Part shown: in pieces, positions 9,550-40,446 of the stretch
Position numbering within the stretch: the first letter of the stretch is position 1
Layout of the letters: each line of letters opens with the position of its first letter
Assembly: GCA_017984435.1 (NCBI GenBank)
Contig: JAGNZK010000025.1
Span: 1-40,603, forward strand
Origin: Nitrosomonas sp.
GTDB taxonomy: Bacteria; Pseudomonadota; Gammaproteobacteria; Burkholderiales; Nitrosomonadaceae
Direction of reading: 5' to 3'
DNA length: 40,603 nt
The notes under the pieces: generated by a model
The model's input: only the letters and a program-made list of their open reading frames with translations
Database searches by the model: none
What the model was told of the DNA's origin: nothing
Program-made: the position numbers and the translations under genes

Positions 9550-10932
9550 ATGACCATCACTCCTAATCGTCAGTGGGCATTAATCGCTGGTCCGTTGCTG
9601 GCTATCGCCGTGGCTTTCAGCATGAACCAATCCGGTTGGGAAGCACAGGCTTGTTGGACGGGTGCCGTGGCCGTTTTGTGTGTTGTCTGGTGGATATTTG
9701 AACCAATCCCTATCCCTGCCACCGCCATCATTCCTTTAGCAATTTTTCCACTCATGGGTGTTTTGCCGCAGGAAAAAGTATCGACTGCTTATGGGAGCGA
9801 ACTGATTCTACTGATGCTCGGCGGATTTATGATTTCTGCGGCAATGGAGCGCTCCGGGGCGCATCACCGTATTGCACTGGGAATGATCAATTTCGTCGGT
9901 GGAGCCAGCAGTCGTCGCATTGTGCTGGGTTTCATGATTGCAACTGCGGCATTGAGCATGTGGATATCGAATACCGCGACGACACTAATGATGCTGCCGA
10001 TTGCGCTGGCTGTGATCGCGCAAAGCCCCGATAAAAAATTAGCCGTACCACTGTTATTATCCATTGCTTACGGCGCTAGTATCGGTGGCTTGGGTACACC
10101 CATCGGATCGCCACCGAATCTGGTATTCATGCAACAGTACGAAAAATTTACCGGCACGGCAATCAGCTTTACGCAATGGATGAGCTGGGGACTGCCGGTC
10201 GTATTGCTCCTTGTTCCACTGGCTGGGTTGTGGCTTACGCGCAAACTAGATTACAAAGGAGAATTAACGATTCCCCCAACCGGTGATTGGCGACCGGAAG
10301 AGCGCCGTGTGCTCATCGTGTTTGGTTTCACTGCTTTAGCCTGGATAACACGTCTTGAGCCTTTCGGCGGCTGGAGCACATGGTTTGATCTCAAAGGCGC
10401 TAATGACGCCATTGTGGCGCTGATCGCCGTCGTGATTATGTTTCTGGTTCCAAATGGGCATGGGGGTAAGCTACTGGACTGGAAATCAGCCGAAAAAGTA
10501 CCTTGGGGCATTCTTATTCTCTTTGCGGCGGGTATCGCTATCGCACAAGCTTTTGTTGAATCAGGACTTTCCAGCTTTATTGGCGATCGACTGGCCATTC
10601 TTGCCAGCTTACATCCGCTTGTTATTATTGCAATCATTGCACTGATCGTCACTTTTCTCACCGAAACCACCAGCAATACGGCCACCACCATTTTATTAAT
10701 GCCAATCCTGGCACCGGCTGCACTTGCAGCGGGTCTCGACCCCAGCTTGTTGATGGTACCGGCAGCGATGAGCGCCAGTTGTGCTTTTATGCTGCCGGTT
10801 GCAACCGCGCCGAATGCGATCGTTTTTGGCAGTGGACACGTATCCATTGCCAATATGGCGCGAGAAGGATTGGTGCTGAATTTTATCGGGGCTGCGGTAA
10901 TTACCTTGGTTTGTTATTTTTTAATTGCATAG
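9550..10932 (+). CDS. SLC13/DASS-family anion or dicarboxylate:sodium symporter
   Basis: This 460-aa inner-membrane transporter has about 11-12 hydrophobic segments. Family hallmarks are the two repeat tips: SIGGLGTPIGSPPNLVF (near 172-190) in the first half and TETTSNTATT in the second. Both correspond to the SNT/TNT-type substrate and Na+ binding motifs of DASS carriers. ISNTATTLMMLPIA is also visible. The substrate (C4-dicarboxylate, sulfate or other anion) cannot be told from sequence alone. It precedes cstA by 74 bases on the same strand, which suggests an organic-acid uptake group. Confidence 0.9.
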   Translation: MTITPNRQWALIAGPLLAIAVAFSMNQSGWEAQACWTGAVAVLCVVWWIFEPIPIPATAIIPLAIFPLMGVLPQEKVSTAYGSELILLMLGGFMISAAMERSGAHHRIALGMINFVGGASSRRIVLGFMIATAALSMWISNTATTLMMLPIALAVIAQSPDKKLAVPLLLSIAYGASIGGLGTPIGSPPNLVFMQQYEKFTGTAISFTQWMSWGLPVVLLLVPLAGLWLTRKLDYKGELTIPPTGDWRPEERRVLIVFGFTALAWITRLEPFGGWSTWFDLKGANDAIVALIAVVIMFLVPNGHGGKLLDWKSAEKVPWGILILFAAGIAIAQAFVESGLSSFIGDRLAILASLHPLVIIAIIALIVTFLTETTSNTATTILLMPILAPAALAAGLDPSLLMVPAAMSASCAFMLPVATAPNAIVFGSGHVSIANMAREGLVLNFIGAAVITLVCYFLIA

Positions 10933-34300: not shown

Positions 34301-35170
34301 TCAAACAGCTTCTGTAATCAGTTTTTCGTAATAATTACCTTGTACCAGATCAAATCCCTCAGAAACCGCAATATTCGCCTGTTCTTTTTGTTCAATTCGC
34401 TGCAATATCGTTTGTCCGTTGGCCAAACTTTGTAGTTCCATCAATTTCTTTAAATCCGCTGACCAAATAGCGTCCGAATGCTGACCGACTTCAATATTGG
34501 GTGCATTAATACGCAAATAATTCGCTGACATTTTGACAATCAAATCCCAAAGCCCGGTTGCTGCGTATAACGAGCCGACATTAAGCGCGATTTGATAGCC
34601 ACGACGACGATAATTGTATAAGCCATCCAACAACTGGGTGTGATTTAAAGCATAAGAACTATTAATTGTCGTTGAAATGACTACATTCTTGGTTGCCAGT
34701 CCGCATTTGAAAATAATTTTCTCAAAATAGGCACCATGCTCTTGTTGAACACTAAGTATATGTCTTGGATCAACATCCAGGAAAACGATGCCACCGTTAT
34801 GCACATGACTGAGATAATTCAACATGTGAACCGTTCTGCATAGGCGATCCAGGCTAATAATGGATTGGAAATTAGCAGGTTGCGTAGCAACATCTGTGAT
34901 CAAATTGCCTATTTCCGTGGACTGTACGCTATGCACGCTATTGTCATAAGGTGTAACGGATAATTGCGCAATATGACCGATAAGCGCTTCACTATTGTCA
35001 GCCTGCCGCACAGGCAAAAAAGCACTGCTCACCCGAATAGGGCCAAAAATACCACTCACCAAACCTTTGTCCAAAATAAACGGACGGAAATTGGAATGAT
35101 GTTCGTGCTCAAAACGATCGTTAAAATAATCGACTAATTGCTGTAAAGGTACTAATTGTTGTATAGGCAT
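34301..35170 (-). CDS. degenerate EAL-domain protein, second copy in the sulfate locus
   Basis: This 289-aa soluble protein has an EAL-like fold but no catalytic motif. AFLPVRQADNSEALIGHIAQL takes the place of the EAL strand. SLDRLCRTVHMLNYL (106-120), FLDVDPRHIL (130-139), NYRRRGYQIALN (186-197), YLRIN and VQGNYY (276-281) follow in EAL order. The metal-binding Glu, Asn and Asp residues are absent, so no c-di-GMP hydrolysis is expected. It is a clear paralogue of the protein at 38125. The start at 35170 follows GGAGT; an in-frame ATG at 35221 was rejected. It lies 132 bases after cysA on the same strand. Confidence 0.75.
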   Translation of the reverse strand: MPIQQLVPLQQLVDYFNDRFEHEHHSNFRPFILDKGLVSGIFGPIRVSSAFLPVRQADNSEALIGHIAQLSVTPYDNSVHSVQSTEIGNLITDVATQPANFQSIISLDRLCRTVHMLNYLSHVHNGGIVFLDVDPRHILSVQQEHGAYFEKIIFKCGLATKNVVISTTINSSYALNHTQLLDGLYNYRRRGYQIALNVGSLYAATGLWDLIVKMSANYLRINAPNIEVGQHSDAIWSADLKKLMELQSLANGQTILQRIEQKEQANIAVSEGFDLVQGNYYEKLITEAV

Positions 35171-35302
35171 AGTTACTCCATAGTTTAAGCGTGCGCTACC
35201 AAAGCGCAATTGGCTCATCAAGCGGCATCAAAATTTGCAGAATGCTCAAAGCATCGAAACGAACCTCATTGATTTCTCTTGAAGGTAGTCATACAAAATA
35301 TT

Positions 35303-36403
35303 TCAGCGCGCTTGAGCTGCATCAGCTATTCTATTTTTATGACTCGGAAACAGATCCAGGCGACGTGGTTTAATAAAAACTTCGTCGCCCCTTACCAGTT
35401 GTAATTCACGAAAACGCTCCTTACTCATTTCAACCTGGATTGGTGTTTTATCGTCATCATTGTTACGCACCAATTCCAGTCGCACGATCGGGCCGACGGA
35501 AAGAACGTGAACGACACGTGCGGCCAGCGCCGCTTCACCATTTTGCGTCCGCTCAACTTCAATTTCATGCGGGCGCACGTAGGCAACTGCCGCCAGTTCT
35601 TCGGCTTCAGCATGCTCCGGCGCATCCACTTCGATATCGCCAATCCAGGCGCGACCACGGTGCAGGCGACTATGAAACAAATTCACATTACCAAGAAACT
35701 CATACACGAACGGGCTGGCGGGTTGCTCATACACCTCATCCGGTGTGCCGATTTGTTCGATCTTACCTTCATTCATAACCACCACCCGGTCGGCAACTTC
35801 AAGCGCTTCTTCCTGATCATGCGTCACAAATACACTGGTGATGTGCATGTCATCGTGCAATCTGCGCAACCAGGAACGCAATTCCTTACGCACCTTGGCA
35901 TCCAACGCACCGAAAGGCTCATCCAGCAATAATACTTTCGGCTCCACCGCCAATGCTCGCGCCAATGCAATACGCTGGCGCTGACCGCCGGAAAGCTGAT
36001 GCGGATAACGATCCGCCAGCCAATCCAGTTGTACCAGATGCAATAACTTCATGACGCGATCGCGGATTTCCGTATTGGAAGGACGGAATTTCTTGGGACG
36101 TACGCGCAAACCAAAAGCCACATTCTCGAAAATGGTCATATTGCGAAATAACGCATAATGCTGGAATACAAAACCGACTTGACGTTCGCGTACATGTTGA
36201 TCGGTAGCATCTTCACCATGGAATAACACCTGACCGCTATCGGCTGTTTCAAGCCCGGCGATCACACGCAATAACGTGGTTTTCCCGGAACCTGAAGGAC
36301 CTAACAACGCCAGCAACTCACCGGAGTGCACTTGCAAGTTCACATCATGCAGCGCAGTGAAGGTGCCAAATTGTTTGGACAGATTAAGGACTTCAATACT
36401 CAT
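35303..36403 (-). CDS. cysA: sulfate/thiosulfate ABC transporter ATP-binding protein CysA
   Basis: This 366-aa ATPase drives sulfate import with CysT and CysW. Walker A is GPSGSGKTT (35-43), Q loop FVFQHYALF, signature LSGGQRQR, Walker [13 protein letters not shown] and switch [12 protein letters not shown]-terminal TOBE-like regulatory domain is at about 240-350 ([12 protein letters not shown]). It overlaps cysW by 4 bases. The length and TOBE domain are normal. Confidence 0.95.
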
Positions 36404-37278
36404 TCGTGACCTCTTGATTTTTGATGTTGTTGATTGCGTAATTCGATCAATGTTTTTAATACGAGCGTCACCAATGCCAGCAATGCCAGCAGTGAAGCCA
36501 CGGCAAAGGCGGCTGCGAAGTTGTATTCGTTATAGAGAATTTCGACATGCAGCGGCATGGTATTGGTGCTGCCGCGAATATGACCGGATACCACCGATAC
36601 CGCGCCAAACTCGCCCATGGCCCGTGCATTACACAGGATAGCGCCGTACAGCAGACCCCATTTGATATTGGGCAGCGTTACCTTATAGAAGGTCTGCCAA
36701 CCGCTCGCGCCCAGCACCACGGCGGCTTCTTCTTCCTCGGTGCCTTGCGCCTGCATCAGCGGAATCAACTCGCGTGCGATGAATGGCACGGTCACGAAAA
36801 CTGTTGCCAGCACAATCCCGGGTACAGCAAAAATAATTTTCATATCGTGCTCCGCCAGCCATGGACCAAACCATCCTTGCAAGCCAAAGACAAGCACATA
36901 GATCAGCCCGGAAACCACCGGGGATACCGAGAAAGGCAAATCGATCAAGGTGATCAACAGATTCTTGCCGCGAAATTCAAACTTGGCAATGGCCCATGCC
37001 GCAGCAACGCCGAATACCAGATTCAAAGGCACCGCAATCGCCGCCACCGTAAGCGTCAATTTGATGGCGGAAACCGCATCAGGATCGGTGATCGCAGCAA
37101 AATAGACATCGCTGCCTTTCTTGAACGCTTCATAAAACACCGAAATCAGCGGGATAAAAAGAAACAAGGTTAAAAAAATAAGCGCCACGCCAATCAAGGA
37201 CCAGCGTACCCAGGCAGGTTCTTGCGTCGCACGTTCTTTTTGAGCATCCGGAGATAAGGGAAAAGTAATCGCCGTCAT
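36400..37278 (-). CDS. cysW: sulfate ABC transporter permease CysW
   Basis: This inner-membrane permease of about 292 aa has six transmembrane helices. It contains [17 protein letters not shown] and the cytoplasmic coupling motif [28 protein letters not shown], then [18 protein letters not shown]. The start at 37278 was chosen because GAGGTGATCACA precedes it. The upstream in-frame ATG at 37299 overlaps cysT and has no ribosome site. It is coupled to cysA by a 4-base overlap. Confidence 0.95.
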
Positions 37279-37288
37279 TGTGATCACC

Positions 37289-38122
37289 TCATGACTCAAT
37301 ACTGCGGCGCCGACTCCACCATTGCAGCAGGTTGATAATTAGTAGCAAAATAAACGAAATCACCAGCATGACGACCGATAATGCCGTAGCACCTGCGTAG
37401 TCATACTGCTCCAGTTTGGTAATAATCAGCAGTGGTGTGATTTCTGAGACCATCGGCATATTCCCGGCAATAAAAATAACCGATCCGTACTCGCCAATCG
37501 CGCGCGCAAAGGCAAGCGCAAATCCGGTCATCAATGCCGGAAAGAGTGCCGGGAAGATTATTCGCGTAAAGGTTTGCCAGCGATTGGCGCCGAGCGTTGC
37601 TGCCGCTTCTTCTAGCTCGGATTCAATATCCTCGAGTACCGGCTGCACTGTGCGCACCACAAATGGCAGACCGATAAAAGTCAGCGCCACAAAAATTCCC
37701 AGTGGTGTAAAAGCAACCTTGATGCCCAGCGGCTCAAGGTGCTGACCAATCCAACCATTGCCCGCATACAGCGCGGTCAACGCAATACCGGCCACGGCGG
37801 TTGGCAGCGCAAAAGGAAGATCCACCAAGGCATCGACTATTTTCTTACCGGGAAAGTGGTAACGTACCAACACCCAGGCCACCAAAAGACCAAATACTGC
37901 ATTGACGACGGCAGCTGCAAATGACGCACCAAACGTCAAGCGGTACGAGGCCACCACACGCGGTGTTGTGACTATGGACCAAAACTCCGGCCAGGATAGT
38001 TCGGCCGTACGGATAAATGCTGCCGACAGCGGAATCAGTACGATCAGGCTGAGATACAGCAATGTAAACCCAAGCGCCAGATTGAATCCTGGCAAGATGC
38101 TGTGTTGTTTAAAAGTATGCAA
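37289..38122 (-). CDS. cysT: sulfate ABC transporter permease CysT (CysU)
   Basis: This 277-aa inner-membrane permease has six helices. [19 protein letters not shown] and the EAA-type motif [30 protein letters not shown] are typical, as is [17 protein letters not shown]. It pairs with CysW. AAGGAG lies before its ATG. The stop of the upstream EAL-like gene is only two bases away, so the two are co-translated. Confidence 0.95.
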
Positions 38123-38124
38123 AT

Positions 38125-38991
38125 CTAACTCCTTCCTGTTAAATTCATTGCGGTCTCGCCGGTATTGACCGTTTCTGAAACGGATAAGCGATCAATCATT
38201 CTGATTGCATGCACCGGTTCGCCAAGCAAATTCCCTTGCAGATCATCCGCATTCGCACGGATGGCAGCTGCTAATTGCACCGGTGTTTCGATATCCCGCA
38301 CCAGCAAGCTTGCGCCAAAGCTATGTATGGTATCCACCAATGATGCAATGGCTTCATGCCGTATCAGGTCATCCGCCTCAATACGCACAATGTTCGGGTA
38401 CAAGCTACCCAATTCCACCATCCAGTCACTACGAGTACCGCTGTAATTGGCAGCGATTTGATAACCGCGGGAACGATAGTTGATAATGACATGCTGCAAC
38501 AGCTTCCAATTGCGATTAACGATAGCCGGAATTTCAATGACCACTCGTGAAGTTTTCACGCCGATCAAATCAAGAAAATTTTCAAAGGCACGGCCATGAT
38601 CGTCTTTAACACTCTCCAACAAGCGTGGATGGACATCCACAAACAAGTTATCCAATTTGGAAATATTATTGAAATAGTAATTCAACGCGTGAATCGCTCG
38701 GCATAAACGATCCAGATCAACCAACTGATCATCCTTTGATGCCAGTGAAAAAACCTGCCAAGGCCAAAGCGCGACATCATTATTTGCTTTGGAACGGATA
38801 TAAGCTGCGTGCCCCGTGGTTTTGCCTTCGTTGATACTAAAAATAGGCTGAAAAACGCTGGTTAATTCGCAATGATAGAAATGTCCACTTATCCAGCCAT
38901 TTTCAGCGCGTTTCATAGAATAGTCAGTGGCTGATTGGATAAGCTCAAATTCATCCTTGACAGTAAAAGTATGGTTTGCTGATGTATTCAT
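38125..38991 (-). CDS. degenerate EAL-domain protein directly upstream of cysT
   Basis: This 288-aa soluble protein keeps the EAL-domain layout but not its chemistry. [23 protein letters not shown] (45-67) replaces QPI...GxEALx[18 protein letters not shown] (91-106) is kept. FVDVHPR (117-123) replaces the Asn-bearing strand, and VVIEIP (150-155) still has Glu. [14 protein letters not shown] (177-190) replaces [19 protein letters not shown] replaces VKID, and LQGNLLGEP (251-259) matches QGYLFGKP. Missing metal ligands argue for a sensor or adaptor, not a phosphodiesterase. It ends 2 bases before cysT. Confidence 0.8.
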
Positions 38992-39049
38992 GGAATAATC
39001 CCTGCATAAATTTAGCGGCTATCTATTGACAGCGAAGCTATTTGAATTC

Positions 39050-39394
39050 TTAGTGCAATCTCCGGAATTGATCTTTGCTTCCACAAAAACTTTTACAACA
39101 ACAATCTTCATCTGTTTGATGAGCATTCAGCAATTTGTCTTTCAACTCATTCACTGAGCGATGGCAATACACTAACGGAATACCGCTGCGACTCGCTTTT
39201 TCCTTCACTGAATTGGCAAGGCTGTGATTGACGTAATCGCAAATAACGACAACTAACCGTGTTTCATTTGGAAGTGAACGTTTGTTAAATCCTTTCTTGC
39301 GACCACTCCAATGCTCAATGCGTGCATGGCGCTGAGTGGAAATGAGGTGCTTGAACGATGTAACATAATCCCCGCCGACAATTAGAACAGTCAT
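39050..39394 (-). CDS. DUF2325-like small protein with cysteine-rich tail
   Basis: This 114-aa soluble protein begins MTVLIVGGDYVTSFKHLIS and contains ARIEHWSGRKKGF, LVVVICDYVNHSLANSVKEKA and GIPLVYCHRSVNEL. This is the Rossmann-like DUF2325 pattern of a strand, a short substrate-like loop, then D and H-bearing strands. The C-terminus has C98-C99-C100 and C104, and C52 and C77 lie in the core, which could bind metal or respond to redox. AAGGAC precedes the ATG. It lies between sbp and the EAL-like gene in the sulfate locus. Function unknown. Confidence 0.7.
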   Translation of the reverse strand: MTVLIVGGDYVTSFKHLISTQRHARIEHWSGRKKGFNKRSLPNETRLVVVICDYVNHSLANSVKEKASRSGIPLVYCHRSVNELKDKLLNAHQTDEDCCCKSFCGSKDQFRRLH

Positions 39395-39417
39395 ATTCAG
39401 TCCTTATCCTTATAGTG

Positions 39418-39439
39418 GTAGCGCACCGCAGCGCGCTAC
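39418..39439 (-). promoter_or_regulatory. intercistronic hairpin after sbp
   Basis: A perfect 7-bp GC-rich stem (GTAGCGC 39418-39424, GCGCTAC 39433-39439) with an 8-base loop lies 8 bases beyond the sbp stop and 23 bases before the next ATG. Hairpins at this place in binding-protein operons often protect the upstream message from 3' decay, allowing more binding protein than permease. Confidence 0.6.
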
Positions 39440-39447
39440 ACGGTGTT

Positions 39448-40446
39448 TTACTTCAGGTAAATCTGATCAAATGTGCCGCCATCAGCAAAGTGGACTTTGT
39501 GCGCACTTTTCCAGCCACCAAAGACATCATCAATTTTAAACAACTCGATCTTTGGAAACTTGCTGGTATATTTCTCAGCAATCTTTGCATCAGTGGGACG
39601 ATAGAAATGTTTGGCAGCGATTTCCTGACCCTCTTCTGAATAGAGGTACTGGAGGTAAGCTTCAGCAATTTGACGCGTACCTTTTTTGTCGACTACTTTG
39701 TCGACGACCGCAACCGGTGGTTCCGCAAGAATACTCAGTGACGGTATGACAACTTCAAATTTATCTGCGCCATATTCCTTGAGCGCCAGAAAAGCTTCGT
39801 TTTCCCAGGAAATCAAAACATCACCCACACCACGCTCCACAAACGTTGTGGTTGAACCGCGCGCGCCGGAATCCAATACCGGCACATTTTTGTAGATGCT
39901 TCTGACAAATTCCTGTTCTTTATTCTCACCATACTTCCGTTTGCCAAATTCCCATGCTGCCAGATAATTCCACTGTGCACCGCCGGAAGTTTTCGGGTTG
40001 GGTGTAATGACAGAGACACCGGGACGCGCTAAGTCATCCCAATTTTTAATTCCCTTGGGATTACCCTTGCGTACCAGGAAAATGATCGTCGAGGTATACG
40101 GTGTACTGTTATGTGCCAATCGCTTCTGCCAATCTTCCGGGAGCAACTTGGCTTTCTCCGCGATGGCATTAATATCGTTGGCTAACGCCAGTGTGACAAC
40201 ATCCGCTTCCAAACCATCAATGACAGATCGTGCCTGTTTGCCGGAACCGCCGTGAGATTGCTGGACTTTCACTGTTTCCTTGGTTTTTGCCTGCCAGTGC
40301 TTGGCAAAAGCAGCATTAAACTCCTGGTAAAGCTCACGGGTTGGATCGTAAGAAACGTTGAGTAAGGTTTTTTGCGCCAATACATTACCGCTGATAACGA
40401 GACTTGCTGCCAAAAAACTTGTTGCTAGCCATGTTTTAGTATTCAT
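39448..40446 (-). CDS. sbp: periplasmic sulfate-binding protein
   Basis: This 332-aa protein has a signal peptide of about 1-24 ([11 protein letters not shown]). The mature part opens [20 protein letters not shown] and has [27 protein letters not shown], the Ser/Gly sulfate-binding segment. [29 protein letters not shown] and [27 protein letters not shown] follow. It delivers sulfate (possibly thiosulfate) to CysTW. TTGGAGG lies before the ATG. It is the first gene of the operon and is followed by a stabilising hairpin. Confidence 0.96.

Follow-up and report, generated by a model that had tools for sequence, protein, structure and literature searches.

Degenerate EAL domains are already known as receptors and adaptors. 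YdiV (RflP) of E. coli and Salmonella, an EAL-like anti-FlhD4C2 factor, has lost eight of ten catalytic residues and acts through a transcription regulator (PMC3510510). The EAL domains of FimX and LapD are likewise non-catalytic and serve as receptor or adaptor (PMC7288161), and a survey quoted in PMC3510510 counts 450 of 1805 EAL-only proteins without key residues. In Pseudomonas aeruginosa, the EAL-containing protein PA0285 (PipA) is encoded beside cysAWT-sbp (PMC10874727). Here we analyze a 40,603-nucleotide stretch of a Nitrosomonas sp. genome (assembly GCA_017984435.1, contig JAGNZK010000025.1, positions 1 to 40,603), called the window below; the bacterium is probably an ammonia oxidizer. 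In its sulfate-uptake locus, two stand-alone degenerate EAL proteins, EALa and EALb, are encoded together with the sulfate ATP-binding cassette (ABC) transporter CysTWA and the sulfate-binding protein Sbp. Both carry a site that stays invariant in their relatives while the catalytic residues fade. The recurrence of relatives beside sulfate genes in other bacteria suggests an overlooked regulator of sulfur uptake.

Loss of catalytic residues and an invariant site

The two proteins and their conserved sites lie at the following positions.

38125..38991, minus strand: EALa, 288-aa degenerate EAL protein (PF00563, E 1.5e-22; 2 of 10 catalytic residues)
38680..38712, minus strand: EALa D94 to N104, the invariant site of the EAL group (69 of 69 rows versus 0 of 8 canonical EALs)
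38584..38598, minus strand: EALa HGRAF (H132 to F136), second conserved site (H 67/69, G 69/69, F 68/69; canonical EALs 0/8)
34301..35170, minus strand: EALb, 289-aa strongly degenerate EAL protein (PF00563, E 3.7e-5; 1 of 10 catalytic residues; hhalign to EALa 99.8%)
34817..34849, minus strand: EALb DRLCRTVHMLN, the same invariant site as EALa D94 to N104 (from the sequence rows of relatives)

EALa scores 80.6 bits against PF00563, above the cut-off of 31.3, and EALb scores 23.7 bits, below it. The EAL fold had been proposed from the sequence alone, and sequence profiles support it directly for EALa: its profile (A1) retrieves EAL structures from the PDB, with YkuI as the best match (E 1.3e-14), and a wide profile (A3) also retrieves FimX- and LapD-type chains. 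For EALb, the assignment is supported through intermediates (the mixed profile A4 and the hhalign comparison with EALa) but not by its own profile, since the EALb-only profile A2 matches no EAL structure in the PDB. Judged by these profiles, EALb is an EAL homologue through EALa and intermediates.

Ten positions, which we take from RocR numbering to be catalytic, were scored. The eight canonical EALs of the same genome keep all ten, EALa keeps two and EALb one, and the EAL glutamate and the metal-site Asn and Asp pair are missing from both proteins, as the original prediction had stated. By residue content, EALa and EALb thus fall outside what an active c-di-GMP (cyclic diguanosine monophosphate) phosphodiesterase carries. 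The description of the pair as catalytically dead fits these counts, and so does the sensor or adaptor role proposed with it. Pocket residues of EALa persist in most of its rows, namely the QPI glutamine (66/67), the ExLxR arginine (64/67) and the QG motif (Q 64/67, G 66/67). The position equated with FimX E653, by spacing and not by structure, is R, W or H in 56 of the 67 rows. EALb keeps only QG among the Q, R and QG pocket residues and, as far as the scored positions tell, has lost nearly all catalytic and pocket residues.

The site that is kept lies elsewhere. D94, R95, R98, H101 and N104 of EALa (DR..R..H..N) are each present in all 69 aligned rows, from which a type of ~440 aa, the long-branched L331 and a set of short relatives were set aside, and in none of the eight canonical EALs of the genome. 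The catalytic count across the same 69 rows spans 0/10 to 10/10, and the site is present in 44 of the 44 degenerate rows, defined as those with five or fewer catalytic residues. Because this motif is invariant while the catalytic residues fade, the shared function is presumably something other than c-di-GMP hydrolysis; this is our main argument. A fetching artefact was considered and rejected. Patterns including DRLCR, a part of the motif, had fetched 18 of the 69 rows, and with these set aside the site is still carried by 51 of the 51 rows fetched without a motif-holding pattern, to be read with the proviso that profile searches may still favor rows with DR..R..H..N.

The set-aside rows extend the pattern. 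In eight of them (seven of the ~440-aa type and L331), each residue of the first motif is present in seven or eight; the ~440-aa rows each keep 10/10 catalytic residues, and L331 keeps 2/10. By sequence, DR..R..H..N is therefore broader than the sulfur link, since these rows have no seen link to sulfur. Seven short relatives (L241, L246, L267, L276, L277, L287 and L292), which share the family code f21, align to the EAL domain over its first part only; they keep both motifs and sit within 1 kb of sbp. Their open frames measure 189-251 aa; as with all relatives, such lengths are upper bounds.

Conservation within Nitrosomonadaceae

In the family of the window, EALa is tied to sbp where it occurs. 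A survey of 126 family genomes found EALa matches at E 1e-8 in 71 and orthologues (E below 1e-70) in 68, sbp in 96, and both sbp and EALa in 65. In 64 of the 68 genomes, EALa shares the strand of sbp and lies downstream of it by at most 2.6 kb; of the remaining four genomes, sbp is on a different contig in one and was not detected in three. In the 49 named family loci (L129-L177), sbp stands ahead of EALa in 47, and the other two are contig ends. A DUF2325 gene lies upstream of EALa in 34/49, and cysT follows EALa within 250 bp in 34/49 and at 2-3.3 kb in 13/49, being unseen in two. EALa is duplicated in 5/49 loci. EALb is present in 10/49, including a fragment (L135) and a split frame (L152). 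Tandem, diverged EALa copies stand between sbp and cysT in L143, L155, L158, L161 and L165 and also in L031, L059, L062 and L064, and Nitrosomonas europaea is included among them.

By tblastn, genes for an encapsulin shell and a cysteine desulfurase directly follow EALa in 15 of the 49 named loci and follow cysA in three more; the encapsulin of L139 was identified as family 2A with cargo. The loci with the insert after EALa are L129, L136, L139, L140, L142-L146, L148, L153, L169, L172, L174 and L176, those with it after cysA are L156, L160 and L165, and Nitrosomonas europaea is among the encapsulin-bearing loci. The shell is found in 31 of the 126 family genomes, and the genome of the window is without it. 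A Synechococcus counterpart of this encapsulin is induced by sulfate starvation (PMC8049743). Because encapsulin and cysteine desulfurase genes follow EALa and this counterpart responds to sulfate starvation, EALa may be expressed under sulfur limitation.

Occurrence outside the family

The link to sulfate genes reaches into the rest of the order. Of fifteen other named loci (L178-L192, 30-35% identity), 11 have sbp, cysT or both in the 8 kb fetched. At E 1e-22, the EALa profile matches 98 of 399 genomes drawn evenly from the order. Checked against the location of cysT, 90 hits outside the family (76 genomes) include 34, one in each of 34 genomes, that are no more than 20 kb from cysT, and 32 of these share its strand; the chance expectation for this distance is estimated at about 1% for a genome of 4 Mb.

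The opposite search set out from cysT, which was found in 156 of the 399 genomes. From the listed places, the 120 with the best scores were taken, each with up to 19.8 kb of sequence; six family places were left out, so that 118 are outside the family and two inside it without EALa. An EAL open reading frame nearer to this group than to canonical EALs is present in 33 of the 120 regions. Thirty-one of the 33 lie within 1.5 kb of an sbp or cys gene, 31 are on its strand, and 31 carry DR..R..H..N, which is missing in the split L220 and the weak L298. A random neighborhood of an abundant domain was rejected as an explanation, since canonical EAL genes occur in only 6 of the 120 regions, against 33 for the group; in two of those six, the canonical gene lies within 100 bp of sbp. 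A lack of conserved co-occurrence with cysTWA had been named as the outcome that would speak against a functional link. The link is conserved, with EALa closely downstream of sbp in 64/68 family genomes and a group member in 33/120 cysT regions, though many sulfate loci are without the gene.

The position of the EAL gene varies: it may precede sbp, separate two sbp genes, follow cysA or a CysB-family gene, or stand ahead of a 2.7 kb encapsulin insert, and in Alcanivorax it is divergent from sbp-cysTWA. Other sulfur genes also adjoin it. L118 directly follows an O-acetylhomoserine sulfhydrylase gene, L110 adjoins an SsuA-family binding protein (147.7 bits against a cut-off of 163.5), and an SrpI-like encapsulin gene lies 1.4 kb from L185. 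Exceptions to the sulfur context are L184 (ammonium transporter), L114 (TonB receptor), L186 and L187.

A class-wide draw matched 76 of 369 genomes. Among 29 class-wide loci outside the genome of the window, L314 and L315 read sbp-EAL-cysT and L325 has the EAL gene after sbp; in the other 26, many of which are frames longer than 400 aa, both sbp and cysT are missing from the 1.5 kb around the gene. A phylum-wide search matched 95 of 319 genomes at E 1e-35, again mostly in frames over 400 aa. Viral contigs held no relative of the EAL group, and a PHROGs search gave only phrog_11823 for EALa (E 1.7e-4).

EALb, CysB-family regulators and the tree

EALb is the rarer of the two, being present in 20 of the 126 family genomes. 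The copy in G093 is interrupted (two frames), and G084 has a fragment besides a full copy. Across the 20 loci, 13 EALb genes follow cysA, six show no cysA in the flanking 1.5 kb, and the last is cut off where its contig ends. All six cysA-free readable loci (L046, L047, L049, L052, L056 and L057) pair EALb divergently with a LysR-type gene that matches CysB-family models of NCBIfam best, at E 1e-92 to 1e-94 and below the curated cut-off. A CysB-like partner 68% identical to this one stands divergently beside L329, a relative of EALb that belongs to a different order. A CysB-family gene also lies 93 to 224 bp behind EALb in L048, L050 and L051, and in L178, L180 and L215 one lies between cysA and the EAL gene. 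The pairing of EALb with CysB-family genes (6/20 loci) hints at a role in gene regulation no less than at one with the transporter.

With the eight canonical EALs of the genome as root, the tree separates the remaining 76 rows from them at 100/100. The ~440-aa type falls inside the group, nearest to L251, L282 and L299 (85/78). Intact and degenerate catalytic states require at least four changes, to which no direction was assigned. EALb joins L314, L315, L325 and L329, which come from other orders of the class, in a group supported at 98/94 that does not include EALa; a quick tree without these four rows placed it beside Alcanivorax with weak support. The careful placement led us to reject EALb as a recent duplicate of EALa. 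Because EALb groups with rows of other orders, EALa and EALb are taken as separate lineages meeting in one locus, and EALb was perhaps acquired by it.

Both genes are under purifying selection. The ratio of nonsynonymous to synonymous substitution (dN/dS), from two comparisons (L129 and L141), is 0.087 and 0.135 for EALa and 0.145 and 0.163 for EALb. The corresponding values are 0.031 and 0.034 for cysA, 0.026 and 0.028 for cysT, 0.054 and 0.058 for sbp, and 0.129 and 0.213 for the DUF2325 gene.

Layout of the locus in the window

The remaining genes of the locus are listed here.

39448..40446, minus strand: sbp, sulfate-binding protein (NF008022, 521.7 bits; PF13531)
39050..39394, minus strand: DUF2325 protein, 114 aa, between sbp and EALa (PF10087, E 7.4e-14)
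37289..38122, minus strand: cysT, sulfate ABC permease (TIGR02139, 440.8 bits)
36400..37299, minus strand: cysW, sulfate ABC permease (TIGR02140, 431.6 bits)
35303..36403, minus strand: cysA, sulfate ABC ATPase with the CysA C-terminal regulatory domain (TIGR00968, 401.4 bits; PF17850)

The seven genes lie on the minus strand in the order sbp, DUF2325, EALa, cysT, cysW, cysA, EALb, as first described, and EALa indeed ends two bases before the TTG start of cysT. The earlier picture of a locus bracketed by two EAL proteins applies to cysTWA; for the whole locus it fails, EALa being inside the presumed operon between the DUF2325 gene and cysT. Motifs reported as common to both proteins were all recovered, as written LDRLCR, FVDVHPR and NYRRRGYQIALN. 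All four CysTWA-Sbp subunits have curated family matches, CysA through the subfamily model TIGR00968 (cut-off 342.75) and below the PRK10851 equivalog cut-off (NF008105, 439.5 bits against 502). The listed start of EALb is TTG 35221. Because GGAG precedes ATG 35170 (in GGAGTAACT) and most relatives start likewise, the true start is probably this ATG, giving 289 aa, and the TTG is probably wrong. Promoter-like sites in the window number 8 against 10.0 in shuffles and terminator-like sites 8 against 7.6, with no excess.

The source genome measures 2.8 Mb and has 22 EAL matches, both window genes counted. EALa is 87% identical in Nitrosomonas strain Nm84, among the closest named loci. The DUF2325 protein has a cysteine-rich tail (DCCCKSFC), and its gene directly follows sbp also outside the family (L193, L194, L196 and L197). 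A Campylobacter DUF2325 member of unknown function is induced 352-fold by violet-blue light (PMC9426514). A PF00939 sodium:sulfate symporter family gene lies at 9550-10932, ~23 kb from the sulfate ABC locus, and a CstA gene follows it.

Discussion

We tentatively favor the reading that EALa and EALb are non-enzymatic adaptors of the sulfur regulon that act in the manner of YdiV, a possibility that we would not yet call probable. It builds on computed evidence, namely homology, conserved neighborhoods, catalytic loss, purifying selection and the invariant non-catalytic site. Both window proteins have the features by which we define the group (a stand-alone EAL protein with DR..R..H..N, near sbp, cysTWA or a CysB-family gene), and they would be soluble regulatory adaptors, two separate members of a sulfur-acquisition EAL group, presumably co-transcribed with the transporter genes. 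The retained site, DR..R..H..N and HG..F in the first half of the domain and not the catalytic center, may dock on a CysB-family LysR regulator (most likely) or on CysA, CysT or CysW, as YdiV docks on FlhD4C2. Such docking would tune the expression or activity of sulfate uptake, in either direction, under sulfur scarcity.

Several observations weigh against this reading. CysB-family genes are not enriched in EAL-bearing cysT regions (11/33, versus 35/87 without EAL; 46/120 overall), which lowers our confidence. Because CysB genes are no commoner with EAL genes, only the EALb pairs, and not cysTWA loci in general, point to CysB. At E 1e-40 the genome of the window yields one CysB-family match, which lies on a different contig. 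On the tree, sulfate-linked rows cluster without forming one clade: the label needs 6 changes against a shuffled mean of 17.7, or 4 when the two further sulfur contexts are counted in and set against every other labeled row. L184-L187, four of the 15 distant named loci, have no sulfate transporter in the fetched 8 kb, and outside the order sbp or cysT lies within 1.5 kb in only 3 of 29 loci. All ten catalytic residues are kept in 14 of the 69 rows, so that part of the group is probably enzymatic. Finally, 87 of the 120 cysT regions hold no group member within about 9.5 kb of cysT, although one may lie elsewhere in the genome, and 31 of the 96 sbp-bearing family genomes are without EALa. Because of these last two counts, we regard the function as accessory.

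Alternatively, EALa could be a metal-free receptor of the FimX or LapD type for c-di-GMP or a related nucleotide, linking messenger level to sulfate transport, with EALb as a non-binding partner. Degenerate EALs can bind c-di-GMP (FimX contacts are given in Table 1 of PMC7288161), EALa keeps the QPI glutamine, the ExLxR arginine and QG, and the many EAL matches of the genome would fit such signaling. The retention of only two catalytic residues, the R, W or H at the position mapped by spacing to FimX E653 and the loss of Q and R in EALb speak against it, and we consider it unlikely. The two proteins might instead be subunits or locks of the transporter that gate the flux by binding either CysT/CysW or CysA, the latter for instance at its C-terminal regulatory domain. 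The close spacing of EALa and cysT, two bases here and at most 250 bp in most named loci, agrees with this, as does the presence of that regulatory domain; the variable position of the EAL gene relative to cysT and the EALb genes that adjoin a CysB-family gene and have no cysA in the flanking 1.5 kb do not, and we give the idea similarly little credence.

Decay is much harder to reconcile with the data. If the genes were passengers, left over from an ancestral c-di-GMP phosphodiesterase under sulfur regulation, retained through linkage and heading to loss, the fading of catalytic residues across the group, the broken EALb in G093, the extra fragment in G084 and the many loci without the gene would follow naturally. 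The dN/dS values of 0.09-0.16, the non-catalytic site in every degenerate row and the tandem EALa copies in five named loci make this very improbable. Similarly improbable, in our estimate, is that the degenerate proteins pair with active EAL or GGDEF-EAL proteins of the genome and inform the control of biofilm and motility about sulfate status. In other bacteria, relatives whose ten catalytic residues are all intact do hold the same kind of locus, canonical EALs adjoin sbp in two of the six cysT regions that hold one, and the Pseudomonas phosphodiesterase PA0285 adjoins cysAWT-sbp, but PA0285 is a GGDEF-EAL protein of different architecture.

Extended beyond the window, the adaptor reading would make this unrecognized EAL-derived group a dedicated regulatory arm of bacterial sulfate assimilation. 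Several branches would have lost its active site, the tree requiring at least four changes of state between intact and degenerate; its first-half site would recognize CysB-family regulators or a sulfur-status ligand, and some lineages would have dispensed with the end of the barrel. We regard this generalization as doubtful. Many stand-alone degenerate EALs have no known role; here there is a shared context, sulfate uptake and CysB-family genes, together with a site that persists where catalysis has gone, and Nitrosomonas europaea, for one, is a host that can be cultured. If the adaptor reading is true, dead EAL domains would gain a regulator target beside FlhDC, and the group would exemplify a second-messenger enzyme turned nutrient regulator. 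If c-di-GMP is still bound, biofilm signaling would be tied to sulfur supply.

Comparison with known systems

In the open-access literature we found no report of a stand-alone EAL protein linked to a sulfate ABC transporter; the nearest is PA0285 (PMC10874727). PMC8346489 was searched for EAL, sulfate and Nitrosomonas, with no match. PA0285 resembles our proteins in its gene neighborhood and differs, going by the title of PMC10874727, in being a GGDEF-EAL phosphodiesterase and not a stand-alone degenerate EAL. FimX and LapD share the non-catalytic EAL domain with EALa and EALb but carry it within larger multidomain proteins, and FimX binds c-di-GMP. YkuI of B. subtilis (PDB 2bas/2w27), the best PDB sequence match to the EALa profile, is a 431-aa chain, compared with about 288 aa here, and is not known to have a sulfur link, no search for one having been made. 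YdiV, too, is not known to be linked to sulfur. Its residue loss is comparable in count with that of EALa, which keeps Q48, R66 and Q252-G253, and the likeness is drawn from its published description. Degenerate EAL adaptors are thus already known as a kind from YdiV, FimX and LapD, and it is the sulfur-linked group that we did not find in print in that literature.

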